IMG/VR virus record: IMGVR_UViG_3300046534_000990
Location: 1 to 25,695 of that record
DNA from: a virus
Length of the DNA: 25,695 nucleotides
Direction: 5' to 3' (one strand)
A program made the position numbers and the translations under genes. Below the pieces are notes generated by a model. It searched no databases and was not told the DNA's origin. It worked only from the letters and a program-made list of their open reading frames with translations. Below, piece after piece: positions 2,081-12,802 of the stretch (position 1 is the first letter of the stretch; each line of letters begins with the position of its first letter).

Positions 2081-2238
2081 CCACCCCGCCGTTAAACCGA
2101 GACGAACAAATCCACTTCATGTCTAACGCCCTCAATCGGCGCGCGCGAACTCTTGAACGCTGGGCCAGCAACAAGGAATTGCAACGCTCGTTGCGCATGA
2201 CCGCCGACGAACACAAAGCACAGGAGGATAAGTCATGA
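2077..2238 (+). CDS. Tiny phage ORF, 53 aa, function unknown
   Basis: An ORF of 53 residues starting MTTPPLNRDEQIHF and ending HKAQEDKS. It begins in an ATGA overlap with the stop of the preceding gene and ends in an ATGA overlap with the next start, so it fills the 154-nt gap exactly in a chain of translationally coupled genes. It is charged, Arg-rich and predicted helical (ALNRRARTLERWASNK). No family is recognised. The coupling at both ends is the main evidence that it is real. Confidence 0.65.
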   Translation: MTTPPLNRDEQIHFMSNALNRRARTLERWASNKELQRSLRMTADEHKAQEDKS

Positions 2239-3038: not shown

Positions 3039-4432
3039 GAGCTAGCCCTCTTTTTCTGCCGCGCCGCAAACACATGCCGCGCCCAACCTGGTTTCTTTCC
3101 CGTCCGCGCCGCAACCGCCAGCAGATCCTCAAGCGTCTCAGCGCGCCCTTGTTCCTGCCGCGCGTCAACCTTGCGTTGCCGTTCCATTACCTCGGCCAGA
3201 TCGCCCTCAACTTCCTCGACCATGCGGCTGTCAATCGGATACACAAACCCACAGCCTGGACGTAGACACGTTGGCGACGGACGATGAACGAAGTAGCAGC
3301 TTGGGCATTGGCGCAGCGGCTTCGTTGGCTCTCTGTTGCCGCCCTTCTTTTTCGCGCCCTCTAGAGACCATTCCCGATCATCATCCGGCAATCCGTGGCG
3401 GTCTACATTGCCCGCGTGGTCAAATATAATTGCAGGCTCAGCCTTCTTGCGCAAAACCCGGCCCCACTTCTGCATCTGCCAGGGCAGCGATTTGGTGGGT
3501 GCAAGGTCAGACATGCACTCGATTGTGACGTCCATCTGCGCCGCGCTCGCAAGGTCAAAGCCAAACGTCAACAGGCTGCAATTCGCCAAGACATGCAGCT
3601 CACGACGCGCAAACGCTTTGATGACCTGCGCCCGTTCGTCGTCCTTCATCTTGCCGCTAATTGCCGCCGCCGAAACGCCTTGCGCCCGAAACTCACCCGC
3701 AACAATCTCAGCGTGCTTTACGCTAGTGCAAAACGCAACATTTAGCTTGCCCCGCGCGTGCTGCACATAATGCCTCACCGCGTTGCCCGTCAAAACCATG
3801 TCGTCCTCCATTCGGGTCGACACCTCGCCTTTCGCATAGTCGCCCATGACTGTTTTGATGCCGGACAAGTCGGGTTTGTGCGGCGCAAACATCCGATATT
3901 GCGACAACCGAACCGCCGCCATCAACTCAGCAACGCTAGGGCCGCACACGAGCGCGTCATACCACTCGCCCATGCCCTTGCCGGACGTTTTGAGGGGGGT
4001 GGCGCTCAAACCTATGACCCATGCCCCCTGCGCCCTGTAGTGGGCTATGATGCGCTCCAATTCCGCCCCGCCGTGGTGTGCTTCGTCAATAAAGACCAAG
4101 CCCGCCCTCGGTGCCTCGTCCAGACGTCCCGCCAACGTGCCAGCCGTCGCAAGCTGCACCTGCGCCAAGCCGTTGCGACCGTATCCCGCGCTCACATAGC
4201 CAAACGAAATATCGTATCGCTCAAGCGTCTTGGCCGTCTGCCGCAACAACTCGCGCCGGGGCACCACAAAAATGCACCGCGTACCCTTCGCCACCGCCTT
4301 GCTAATCATGTAAGCGCCCATGATGGTCTTACCGCTGCCGGTAGCAGACTGGCACAAAATCGACTTACTGTGCCGCATTGCATCCCGCACCCGGTCAATC
4401 AAATCCTGCTGGTCGTCGTATAGCGAGATCAC
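3035..4432 (-). CDS. DEAD/DEAH-box (SF2) phage helicase with C-terminal zinc motif
   Basis: A 465-aa superfamily 2 helicase. Motif I SATGSGKT is at 29-36, motif Ia VVPRREL at 56-62, motif II DEAH at 116-119, motif III SATP at 143-146, and motif VI QKWGRVLRK at 321-329. A C-terminal CxxC...C...C cluster (C376, C379, C389, C394) likely binds zinc. A helical tail (MVEEVEGDLAEVMERQRK) follows. SF2 enzymes of this type unwind branched DNA or load at phage origins using ATP. It overlaps the primase-helicase gene and the 60-aa gene by ATGA. Residue Q8 in a YDDQQDLI segment stands where the Q motif is expected. Assignment to the family is firm; the substrate is unknown. Confidence 0.95.
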   Translation of the reverse strand: MISLYDDQQDLIDRVRDAMRHSKSILCQSATGSGKTIMGAYMISKAVAKGTRCIFVVPRRELLRQTAKTLERYDISFGYVSAGYGRNGLAQVQLATAGTLAGRLDEAPRAGLVFIDEAHHGGAELERIIAHYRAQGAWVIGLSATPLKTSGKGMGEWYDALVCGPSVAELMAAVRLSQYRMFAPHKPDLSGIKTVMGDYAKGEVSTRMEDDMVLTGNAVRHYVQHARGKLNVAFCTSVKHAEIVAGEFRAQGVSAAAISGKMKDDERAQVIKAFARRELHVLANCSLLTFGFDLASAAQMDVTIECMSDLAPTKSLPWQMQKWGRVLRKKAEPAIIFDHAGNVDRHGLPDDDREWSLEGAKKKGGNREPTKPLRQCPSCYFVHRPSPTCLRPGCGFVYPIDSRMVEEVEGDLAEVMERQRKVDARQEQGRAETLEDLLAVAARTGKKPGWARHVFAARQKKRASS

Positions 4433-10023: not shown

Positions 10024-10259
10024 CTTGGCAACCGATTGAGACAGCGCCCAAGGAAGGTTTTTTTCTTGTGGGCGATGCGAATAGTGATGATTGGGACTGC
10101 ACGGTTTGCGTTTGCCACATGGAAAAGGGCGAACAACTTATAGCATACATGGACGGATTGGGGCGACTGCACCCATATTTGGATGGACTCGCCACCCACT
10201 GGATGCCCCTACCGCCGCCGCCCCAAGCAGCAGTAGACATCGAGGGCGCTGCGGTCTAG
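10020..10259 (+). CDS. DUF551-like small phage protein
   Basis: A 79-aa protein. Start MTWQPIETAPKEG is the classic N-terminus of the DUF551-type family (WQPIETAPKDG), and THWMPLPPPP (about 58-67) is its C-terminal motif. The frame extends to 10002, but the ATG at 10020 overlaps the previous stop by ATGA and matches the family start. Function is unknown in the family. It is the last gene of the rightward accessory run, followed by a hairpin and 590 nt without protein genes. Confidence 0.85.
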   Translation: MTWQPIETAPKEGFFLVGDANSDDWDCTVCVCHMEKGEQLIAYMDGLGRLHPYLDGLATHWMPLPPPPQAAVDIEGAAV

Positions 10260-10292
10260 CATAACTTAGCGCAGCGGGCGGTCGCGCGCCTC

Positions 10293-10316
10293 TCGGGGTT
10301 TCATAGTTTCCCCCGA
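10293..10316 (+). terminator. Weak terminator-like hairpin after the accessory run
   Basis: TCGGGG (10293-10298) pairs with CCCCGA (10311-10316) around a 12-nt loop, 34 nt past the DUF551-like gene. No T-run follows, so it may only stabilise the 3' end or act with a factor. Weak call. Confidence 0.3.
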
Positions 10317-10397
10317 TATCAGCACATACACCCGCAACAACGGCCAGGCCAATCCTTTCTCCCGGTTGAGTTGTCGATTAGCCCACGAGACGGGCAA

Positions 10398-10423
10398 GCC
10401 CGCGCATTTTGGAGTGCGCGGGC
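10398..10423. other. Stable 9-bp GC hairpin in the noncoding region
   Basis: GCCCGCGCA (10398-10406) pairs perfectly with TGCGCGGGC (10415-10423) around an 8-nt loop. It lies about 50 nt upstream of the structured element at 10475. There is no T-run on either side, and no reading frame explains it. Confidence 0.5.
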
Positions 10424-10474
10424 CGCTAACCCCAAGGCTTGCAACGTCGCGCGCAATGGGGCAAGGTGATTAAG

Positions 10475-10617
10475 AGCCGCTTTGTTGTGGTGTGACGCAA
10501 CCCAATGAATGACAGGCCAACCACTTGTGGCTAGTTGGGATTCATCGTCACACCTCATGAGCGCGGCTTAGTCCATTCACAGCGTTGACGTAAGCCTGTG
10601 ATGCCCATAAAGTGGGC
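10475..10617 (+). ncRNA. Candidate structured noncoding RNA, three hairpins
   Basis: The long hairpin pairs AGCCGC (10475-10480) with GCGGCT (10563-10568), GGTGTGACG (10489-10497) with CGTCACACC (10546-10554), ATGAAT (10505-10510) with ATTCAT (10540-10545), and CCAAC (10517-10521) with GTTGG (10534-10538): 26 pairs, with a symmetric 8+8 internal loop. Next TCACAG (10577-10582) pairs with CTGTGA (10596-10601), and GCCCA (10603-10607) with TGGGC (10613-10617). No protein frame is convincing here. It sits just upstream of the tRNA. No Rfam family is recognised. Strand is assumed from the flanking genes and tRNA. Confidence 0.5.
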
Positions 10618-10655
10618 GCGCTCAAACTAACGACAGAAGGCAGGGTGCGCTTTGC

Positions 10656-10728
10656 TTTCCACTGGCCCCAAGGTGGTGGCAAACGGCTGTTAACCGTTGA
10701 TTGCTTGGTTCGATTCCAAGGTGGAGAG
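10656..10728 (+). tRNA. tRNA-Asn (anticodon GUU)
   Basis: A full cloverleaf fits. Acceptor: TTTCCAC (10656-10662) with GTGGAGA (10721-10727), one G-U. D-arm 10665-10680 has a 3-bp GCC/GGC stem with GG in the loop. Anticodon arm AACGG-CTGTTAA-CCGTT (10682-10698) is perfect, with anticodon GTT at 10689-10691. Variable loop is 5 nt; T-arm CTTGG-TTCGATT-CCAAG (10704-10720) is perfect. Discriminator is G (10728), the base used by bacterial tRNA-Asn. The 3' CCA is not encoded (CTA follows). The D-arm is a little degenerate (T-G at positions 8-9 and no A14). It likely supplies Asn-tRNA for phage translation, or is a remnant of a host tRNA. Confidence 0.88.
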
Positions 10729-10742
10729 CTAAGCGCATTCTA

Positions 10743-10830
10743 AGCCGCTTTGATGTGGTGTGTTCCAAATTTCGCGTAGATGAAATACGTGAAAGACGGA
10801 AATGCTCTAGCGCGCTCAACCACACTAAGC
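10743..10830 (+). other. Second copy of the 20-nt repeat with its own hairpin
   Basis: AGCCGCTTTG then a variable base then TGTGGTGTG at 10743-10762 matches 10475-10494 in 19 of 20 positions. Downstream, TTCGCGTA (10771-10778) pairs with TACGTGAA (10786-10793) with a 7-nt loop, and TGTGGT (10754-10759) can pair with ACCACA (10819-10824). GCGCGCTCAA recurs in both units (near 10615 and 10812). It looks like a diverged partial duplication flanking the tRNA; no protein frame is seen. Confidence 0.4.
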
Positions 10831-10852
10831 ATCTAACCCCAAGGGGAGAGAC

Positions 10853-10993
10853 ATGAAGTTAAAACGCCGCAACCCGTTCGCCGCCGCTTGGATGACGTAT
10901 CCAAAGCTGCGCAGCCTCGGTTGCTTCGGGCGAAGGAGGTGCTTAATGCTGGCGCTGTCGCATTTTTACTCGCGCCCGCCATTTGACCCATGA
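10853..10993 (+). CDS. Tiny ORF (46 aa, or 15 aa from an internal start)
   Basis: ATG at 10853 follows AGGGGAGAGAC and opens a 46-codon frame, MKLKRRNPFAAAW, basic and Cys/Arg-containing. It stops in an ATGA overlap with the next ORF. An in-frame ATG at 10946 has a near-perfect site, AAGGAGG, 6 nt upstream and would give a 15-residue peptide (MLALSHFYSRPPFDP) that also ends in the overlap. Which start is used cannot be told. No family is recognised. It begins the late module, right after the noncoding region. Confidence 0.5.
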   Translation: MKLKRRNPFAAAWMTYPKLRSLGCFGRRRCLMLALSHFYSRPPFDP

Positions 10994-11178: not shown

Positions 11179-11592
11179 TTGGCCGACATGACAGACAAGC
11201 CACCACGCGCAAAGACGGGAGCCGAGACTTACGAGGTCGGCAACTGTAAGCCGCCGAAACATACGCAGTTCAAGGTAGGCAACAACGCCAACCCTGGGGG
11301 CAAGACCTCTGCTCAGCGCAAAATGGAAATTGCCAACGCTGAAAAAGCAACGCTCATCCGGGGCCGATTGCTGGACGCGGTTATTAATGCCAGTGAGGCA
11401 GGCGGGGCCAGCACTATGGAGCTAATCGAAGCGGCCATGCTGAAGCTGTTAGCAGACTCTGAAAACCGTGGTCTTGGCACGCCTAAGCAGACAGTCGACA
11501 ACACGTCAAGCGACGGCAGCATGACGCCTATCAGCAAGATCGAGCTTATAGCCAAGCCCATTGTGGGCATCCCCGGCGATGACGACACTTAG
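11179..11592 (+). CDS. Terminase small subunit-like (DUF5681-type) protein
   Basis: A 137-aa protein. Residues 22-41 (GNCKPPKHTQFKVGN then NANPGG) are the DUF5681 signature (YxVGxxKPPxxxxFxxGxSGNPxGR), a family typical just before the large terminase in many phages. The remaining helical part (MEIANAEKATLIRGRLLDAV) fits a small-terminase oligomer. TTG at 11179 is favoured as start because AAGGGG lies 6 nt upstream; the ATG at 11188 is 15 nt from that site and is the alternative. It overlaps the large terminase gene by 14 nt. It would recognise the packaging site and regulate the motor. Confidence 0.75.
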   Translation: MADMTDKPPRAKTGAETYEVGNCKPPKHTQFKVGNNANPGGKTSAQRKMEIANAEKATLIRGRLLDAVINASEAGGASTMELIEAAMLKLLADSENRGLGTPKQTVDNTSSDGSMTPISKIELIAKPIVGIPGDDDT

Positions 11593-12802
11593 GGTCGAGC
11601 TGCCGCCAAAGCTAGTCGAAACATTCGCACGCCCTGCCCGCCACCGCGTCGTTAAGGGCGGTCGAGGTTCGGGCAAAACGCGCGGCCTAGCAAAAATGGC
11701 AGCGGTCGAGACATTCCGGCTCGCACAGAATGGCGCGGAGGGGATGTTCCTATGCAGCCGTGAACACCTCAACAGCCTAGACGAATCAAGCCTAGAAGAG
11801 CTAAAGGCCGCAATCCGGTCTGAGCCGGACCTGTTGCCGCACTTCGACATAGGCGAACGATACATACGCACGGCAGACCGGCGCGTCTCGTTTGCGTTTG
11901 CAGGGCTGCGCCACAACCTCGACAGCATCAAGTCTAAGGCCCGCATATTGCGCAACTGGACGGACGAGGCGGAAGGCGTTTCCGAAGCCGCATGGCGCAA
12001 GCTGTTGCCGACCATCCGAGAACATGAGTCTGAAAACTGGGTAAGCTACAACCCGGAGAGCAGCGAGAGCGCAACGCACAAGCGCTTTATAGCGGACACC
12101 CCCACAAGCTGCATCGTCACCGAGCTAAACTGGCGTGACAATCCGTGGTGGAATGAGGTTCTTAATCAGGAGCGGCTTGACGATAAACGGCTGCGGCCCG
12201 ACACCTACGACCACGTTTGGGAGGGCGCTTTCCTTACGCGCACCGACGCGCAGATATTCGCGGGCAAGGTTGAGGAAAAGGAGTTCGAGCCTAGTCACGC
12301 GTGGGAAGGCCCGTTTCAGGGCGGCGACTTCGGCTTTTCGCAAGATCCGACCGCCGCTATCCAGTGCTGGATCTATCAATGCGACCTTTACGTCTCGCAT
12401 GAGGCGTTTAAGAAGAAACTGGAGATTGACGACACGGCGGCGTTTGTCGAGGGCAAAATACCCGGCTGGAGCAATGACGTGTCACGCTGGGACAACGCCC
12501 GCCCTGAGAGTATCAGCTACCTAAAGCGGCACGGGATGGCCCGCGCGCAGTCGTGCGACAAGTGGCCGGGGTCGGTTGAGGACGGTATCGAACACCTCAA
12601 ATCCTACGGCAAGATATACGTGCATCCGCGCTGTCCTAGCATATCGCGCGAATTTCGGCTATATAGCTACAAAGTGGACCGCAACACCGAGGACATCACG
12701 TCTAAGATTGTTGACGACCACAACCACGGGATCGACGCCTTGCGCTATGCGATAGGGCCAATGATTAAACGGCGCAGTCAGCCGAGAATAAGGGCGCTTT
12801 GA
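11579..12802 (+). CDS. Terminase large subunit (PBSX-type packaging ATPase/nuclease)
   Basis: A 407-aa protein starting MTTLRVELPPKL (ATG 11579; the GTG at 11561 would add six residues). The ATPase domain has Walker A GGRGSGKT (27-34) and Walker B RNWTDEAEG (125-133) in the Terminase_3/PBSX style, then WVSYNPESSES (153-163). The C-terminal nuclease (RNase H fold) has GGDFGFSQDPTA with D250 and D256, and a late acidic segment (KIVDDHNHGIDALRY). It cuts and pumps concatemer DNA into the prohead through the portal encoded next. It overlaps the small subunit by 14 nt and the portal gene by 1 nt (TGATG). Confidence 0.95.
   Translation: MTTLRVELPPKLVETFARPARHRVVKGGRGSGKTRGLAKMAAVETFRLAQNGAEGMFLCSREHLNSLDESSLEELKAAIRSEPDLLPHFDIGERYIRTADRRVSFAFAGLRHNLDSIKSKARILRNWTDEAEGVSEAAWRKLLPTIREHESENWVSYNPESSESATHKRFIADTPTSCIVTELNWRDNPWWNEVLNQERLDDKRLRPDTYDHVWEGAFLTRTDAQIFAGKVEEKEFEPSHAWEGPFQGGDFGFSQDPTAAIQCWIYQCDLYVSHEAFKKKLEIDDTAAFVEGKIPGWSNDVSRWDNARPESISYLKRHGMARAQSCDKWPGSVEDGIEHLKSYGKIYVHPRCPSISREFRLYSYKVDRNTEDITSKIVDDHNHGIDALRYAIGPMIKRRSQPRIRAL

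Follow-up and report, generated by a model that had tools for sequence, protein, structure and literature searches.

What kind of RNA, if any, is encoded beside the tRNA gene of this phage, and what might it do? The window, meaning the whole 25,695-nt stretch of DNA analysed, is an IMG/VR phage fragment with replication genes on its left and large terminase, portal, head, and tail genes on its right. A first-pass annotation had proposed that positions 10475-10617, within a 593-nt stretch holding no convincing protein frame and just 5′ of a tRNA, form a candidate novel structured noncoding RNA with pairing too regular for chance. Shuffled controls bear out the pairing: the 143 nt fold at a minimum free energy (MFE) of -58.7 kcal/mol, as against -42.5 +/- 4.0 for shuffles (z -4.1; none of 200 as good). 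For the 593 nt at 10260-10852, z was -5.05 and none of 100 shuffles was as good, an excess partly explained by the tRNA-Asn(GTT) that the stretch includes; we agree that it contains no convincing open reading frame. The tRNA lies at 10656-10729 (ARAGORN). A search of relatives for compensatory changes found them, as described below, and together with the folding result and the lack of an Rfam 15 family they support the candidate.

The long hairpin region is therefore real and structured, but the pairing and boundaries drawn for it need correction. In place of 26 pairs with a symmetric 8+8 internal loop, the MFE fold has about 33 pairs interrupted by several small loops, and an end at 10617 severs the 3′ arm of a second conserved stem, P3 (GAGCGCG at 10559-10565 with CGCGCTC at 10617-10623). 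Inclusion of six more 3′ bases allows P3 to form; with these ends, the first conserved stem, P2 (10489-10497/10546-10554), and P3 together reach -59.9 kcal/mol, compared with -55.5 kcal/mol for the long hairpin closed by CCGC/GCGG pairs, which was set aside as less stable once the 3′ arm is counted. On these energies, the base of the hairpin as first drawn is probably wrong. The CCGC/GCGG pairing is invariant among members of the family described below and so carries no covariation information; across the family a CCGC/GYGG hairpin is 98.6% paired, yet it was rejected as lacking covariation and competing with P2. A switch between the two forms is conceivable, in which the invariant CCGC could exchange with the 3′ arm of P3. 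The main feature of the locus, a conserved scaffold with swapped tips, is not visible from a single sequence.

Organization of the Locus

All features of the locus lie on the plus strand. Module 1, a two-stem RNA module (10477-10627), begins with a conserved 5′ arm, CCGCTTTGTTGT (10477-10488), of which CCGC and the following TT are nearly invariant in 36 aligned members; the pairs TG.../CA... just under P2 are retained as a G-C replacement in one relative (L007). Stem-loop P2 (10489-10554) consists of a 9-bp stem, GGTGTGACG/CGTCACACC, that carries a 48-nt exchangeable tip (10498-10545) found in two relatives only (L004 and L086). The linker TCAT (10555-10558), whose bases 2 and 4 are invariant, leads to stem-loop P3 (10559-10623), the exchangeable tip of which is identical in L002 and L004, and the module ends in a conserved tail, AAAC (10624-10627; AAC in most members). 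A truncated copy, module 2 (10745-10820; E 0.014), is reduced to the 5′ arm and GGTGTG, one half of a P2 tip (10763-10801), and the final P3 arm, CGCGCTCAAC (10811-10820); its intact form is present in L002 and L004. The two copies share a 20-nt near-repeat, AGCCGCTTTGNTGTGGTGTG, at 10475 and 10743, which was the starting point for the family search.

Between the modules, an inverted repeat folds into a stem that prolongs the tRNA-Asn acceptor well past its normal end (10642-10741). The prolonged stem occurs in the window and in L091, where the changes are matched, and such paired flanks may hinder normal tRNA maturation. Upstream of module 1 are a GC-rich leader hairpin (10398-10423), also present in close relatives, and a weak promoter-like site (10234-10262), a 9/12 match from a consensus scan for which 0.8 matches are expected by chance. 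Downstream are a gene at the small-terminase position (11179-11592), called terS by position and belonging to a PHROG of unknown function, and the large terminase gene (11561-12802; PHROG 3717, E 1.2e-57). A terminator between the module and terS was looked for in the window, and none was found.

A Family of Two-Stem Modules in Rhodobacterales Phages

IMG/VR was scanned with the 20-nt repeat and its conserved partner, and paired blocks were then required. This yielded about 54 modules, among which 53 P2 stem-loops are distinct, from IMG/VR contigs (loci with L numbers) and named phages, in a constant order: CCGCWTTGATGY, P2 (GGTGTGA...TCACACC in the majority), YCAT, P3 (GAGCGCGG...CCGCGCTC), and AAC. 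The named phages are Octadecabacter Antarctic DB virus 2 (DB2), Sulfitobacter phage phiGT1, which has two copies, and Paracoccus phage Pkon1, whose module the model scores poorly and which was recognised by eye from its near-identity to the second L380 module. The hosts of all three belong to the Rhodobacterales, a bacterial order of ecological importance. Because complete isolate genomes carry modules, an assembly artefact is unlikely. Copy number per locus ranges from one to three, and tandem arrays of two or three modules occur in L209, L192, L082, L188, and L200. Joints in some arrays bear TTCTAAGC or similar sequences, which may be points of recombination between units.

Pattern matches in viral contigs were dismissed as chance when they lacked a paired P2; matches on the opposite strand are mirror images of true modules, the blocks being near-palindromic. 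Bacterial genome contigs yielded 24 pattern matches, about the estimated chance expectation. Among 385 alphaproteobacterial genomes there were three poor matches and one pattern match resembling coding sequence, and a scan of plasmids for the module gave nothing convincing.

Covariation and the Folding Strand

In 36 framework sequences, drawn from a collection for which the script required P2 pairing and in which P3 arms were part of the query for those modules that the P3 pattern retrieved, P2 and P3 are 94.1% paired, compared with 84.1% in shuffles. The corresponding pattern bias does not affect members obtained from the sequence pattern alone, by blastn (DB2 and phiGT1), or by way of a terminase (L012). 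Double-sided changes occupy 63 cells in these 36 sequences vs. 16 in shuffles, a level reached by none of 500 shuffles, and the signal is abolished when the pairing partner is slid out of register. Covariation supports P2 strongly, with compensatory changes in seven of its nine pairs. P3 is 94.8% paired and nearly invariant, and it is supported in few members: L012 and L144 swap one pair on both sides, and DB2 and a second L209 module have an extra base in both arms. G-U combinations fill 30 cells and A-C combinations only 2, which identifies the coding-sense strand, running in the direction of the genes, as the strand that folds. The holder is thus conserved as a structure on that strand.

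Exchangeable Tips

The tips on this scaffold fall into approximately 42 sequence classes for P2 and 35 for P3, mostly singletons. To the left of the modules, L090, L085, and L002 match the window at 86-92% identity, whereas their tips are unrelated to those of the window, except that L002 has one unrelated tip and one identical tip. The same P3 tip is found with differing P2 tips in L191, L192, and L196, and another in L145, L200, L202, and L305. Conversely, Pkon1 and L380 share a small P2 hairpin and have unrelated P3 tips. One tip has changed slots, the P2 tip of L305 matching the P3 tip of L086 at 82.5% over 40 nt, and the P3 slot of L010 appears by eye to be empty. Whole tips have therefore been exchanged from phage to phage, and in at least one case from one slot to the other. 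Taken together, P3 tips show no folding advantage over shuffles, and that of P2 tips is slight.

One recurrent tip, class A (L085, L128, L184, L007, DB2, L483, and L484), has unpaired stretches that are conserved and an inner hairpin maintained by compensatory changes. In L484 it is free-standing on a different stem (~2095-2195, minus strand), between tRNA-Trp and tRNA-Tyr and immediately ahead of a gene that looks by eye like a large terminase. L483 was reached solely through this tip, yet the scaffold is present there at E 4.1e-8.

Genomic Setting and Neighboring abiF Motifs

In most loci checked, the modules are oriented with the genes and stand immediately upstream of a terminase gene, the terminases belonging to several unrelated families. 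The L199 and L194 modules come before an exonuclease gene, in an early-type operon, and those of L184, L202, and L145 before other or unknown genes. tRNAs adjoin the modules of six loci in all: tRNA-Asn(GTT) in the window, L091, L424, and L483, and tRNA-Met in L365 and L380. Promoter-like sequences of the form TTGACN-N17/18-NATAGT stand before the leader in DB2 and, by eye, in L084 and L086-L088, all as consensus matches only; a strong promoter suspected by eye in L431 was dropped, its spacing being wrong. A terminator-like hairpin follows the divergent module of L431 (1063-1086) and precedes terS. By eye, similar hairpins flank the Pkon1 module (L486, ~1465-1497 and 1645-1670). In phiGT1, an annotated antitermination gene of the RfaH/NusG type (L324, 1337-1954) lies shortly upstream of the modules.

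Some modules also have abiF RNA motifs as neighbors. The abiF RNA is a trans-acting antitoxin that neutralises AbiF through direct contact (PMC12373285). In L189, the Rfam abiF RNA (RF03085) is matched between module and terS (3903-3939; 39.9 bits, cut-off 37). Exact abiF cores, each in a hairpin, occur a few bases before the module in L010 (~3952-3988), shortly after it in L395 (1389-1425), and 2.4 kb after it in L187 (8371-8407); these three are under the Rfam cut-off, with E from 1.5e-5 to 2.2e-4 per record. The record of L185 has a weak match, and in three relatives the motif is within ~215 nt of the module. Exact cores were counted in 4 of 65 module-bearing loci and 0 of 427 others, in a sample gathered around modules and with redundant contigs included. 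No Abi_2 gene was seen on the L189, L010, L395, or L187 contigs, all of which may be fragments; judged from sequence, the motifs may be orphan antitoxin RNAs.

Comparison with Known RNAs

The window gave no match to Rfam 15 at the gathering score, and at E up to 10 the region 10420-10860 gave only a weak tRNA-Sec match over the tRNA, along with chance matches. In DB2 there were chance matches only, and among 11 relatives abiF was matched beside, not inside, the L189 module. The module itself does not match RF03085. The family appears neither in Rfam nor in the open literature that was searched, subscription papers and preprints lying outside that scope. We regard the architecture of the module as new, although its function could still prove to be of a known kind. 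To our knowledge, phages have not been described to swap RNA domains on a common scaffold.

Several known RNAs nevertheless resemble the module in part. The T4 RNAs rnaC and rnaD are likewise structured RNAs in a phage tRNA neighborhood, and they are stable RNAs for which we know of no function; a search of the T4 tRNA cluster (L485) with the module model R1 found nothing, so that the scaffold is absent there. Phage tRNA genes share the neighborhood of the modules, and a few tips are tRNA-like, but modules have no general tRNA fold: ARAGORN calls no tRNA in them. The notion that all modules are tRNA-like was dropped, T-arms not being enriched. HK022 putL and putR are, like the module, short phage RNAs with two adjacent stem-loops at operon starts; put RNAs are ~70 nt and lie downstream of early promoters (PMC9378689). 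Modules likewise show two adjacent stem-loops near operon starts, but their tips are hypervariable and exchangeable, and the likeness is drawn from the published description of put. The C4 RNA of phages P1 and P7 (RF01695) is also phage-borne and combines a constant fold with variable loops, RNase P cutting it from a longer transcript (PMC5320573). Unlike C4, the module exchanges whole domains rather than loops only, and its antisense action on its own phage was discarded as an idea, since tips show no excess complementarity over shuffles to their own contig or the next 700 nt. The RNA antitoxins, namely abiF RNA (PMC12373285) and the phage mimic known for ToxIN, pseudo-ToxI of PhiTE (PMC3475682), are structured RNAs that neutralise an abortive-infection toxin. 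Modules differ in matching neither abiF nor any other Rfam family, with orphan abiF motifs only alongside and in few relatives.

Possible Functions

The structure of the modules is well supported. What they do is less certain, and our best reading, to which we assign a probability of roughly 40%, is that stable anti-defence RNAs are carried as an exchangeable array on a conserved holder. The module would be transcribed together with the tRNA/terminase leader; the holder (CCGCWTTGATGY arm, P2, YCAT, P3, and AAC) would serve maturation and stability; and the tips would work in trans, as decoys or RNA antitoxins that counter RNA-binding or RNA-cutting defences of the host. Differences in defence between hosts would drive the swapping of tips, through recombination at the conserved stems, and neighboring tRNAs and orphan abiF motifs would be further anti-defence cargo of the same locus. 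P2 covariation, the G-U excess, unrelated tips on similar flanks, mixed tip combinations, the tip seen in both slots, tip class A, the tRNAs adjoining six loci, the orphan abiF motifs, the trans action of abiF RNA, and the precedent of a phage RNA mimic for ToxIN all favor this reading. Against it, tips match no known antitoxin RNA in Rfam scans and fold little better than shuffles, if at all; abiF motifs occur in a minority of loci, mostly below the cut-off, on fragment contigs and in a module-centred sample; the position at operon starts fits a cis-acting role too; and a mere holder would not account for the conserved 5′ arm. In its widest form, which we put forward tentatively, the region would be an RNA cassette locus, where a two-slot holder receives swapped, unrelated domains and a hypervariable effector arsenal (antitoxins, decoys, and tRNAs) is directed against defences.

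The main rival, which we consider rather unlikely, is a put-like leader for processive antitermination, with the holder binding elongating RNA polymerase, read-through into the downstream operon, and tips that are tolerated and mostly neutral. The resemblance to the two stem-loops of HK022 put RNAs (PMC9378689), positions at operon starts that are mostly late and of early type in L199 and L194, tandem copies, the hairpins before terS in L431 and Pkon1, and the RfaH/NusG-type gene of phiGT1 all speak for such a leader. However, neutral tips should drift rather than recur as units in several phages with compensatory pairs, class A is also found without the holder, and the window revealed no terminator between the module and terS. 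A C4-like antisense regulator, whose variable loops would pair with phage mRNAs to control genes or superinfection, has in its favor that C4, which RNase P cuts from a longer transcript, likewise combines a constant fold with variable loops (PMC5320573), but the absence of a match to RF01695 in the stretches scanned (window, DB2, and 11 relatives) and of excess complementarity of tips to their own contig or the next 700 nt makes it improbable. Closeness to terminase genes and cassette-like exchange would suit a DNA element, either a packaging site or a recombination cassette that folds as a single strand with no RNA function. The strand-specific tolerance of G-U and the fact that modules precede terminases of several unrelated families, as well as an exonuclease gene, render this very improbable. 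We give still less weight to modules being relics of stem-held tRNAs, i.e., decaying phage tRNA genes: genuine tRNAs do adjoin them in six loci, and a few P3 tips look tRNA-derived (L201, L424, L185, and L209), but T-arm-like hairpins stand at the expected place in only 4 of 42 P3 tips vs. 2.8 in shuffles and in no P2 tip, and compensatory stems and a conserved 5′ arm are not products of decay.

If the tips are effectors, as in the anti-defence reading, the locus offers a ready-made catalogue of RNA counter-defences and a route to RNA-sensing defences not yet known; should the holder instead be an antiterminator, it would be a new control element for operons of Rhodobacterales phages. Either reading explains stretches annotated as proteins in published phages. 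Annotated protein genes overlap modules in phiGT1 (phiGT1_69, L324 2165-2611) and in DB2 (gp74, L323 2392-2916). The 5′ part of the gp74 gene looks misannotated, and its true start is probably the ATG near L323 2563, 3′ of the module.
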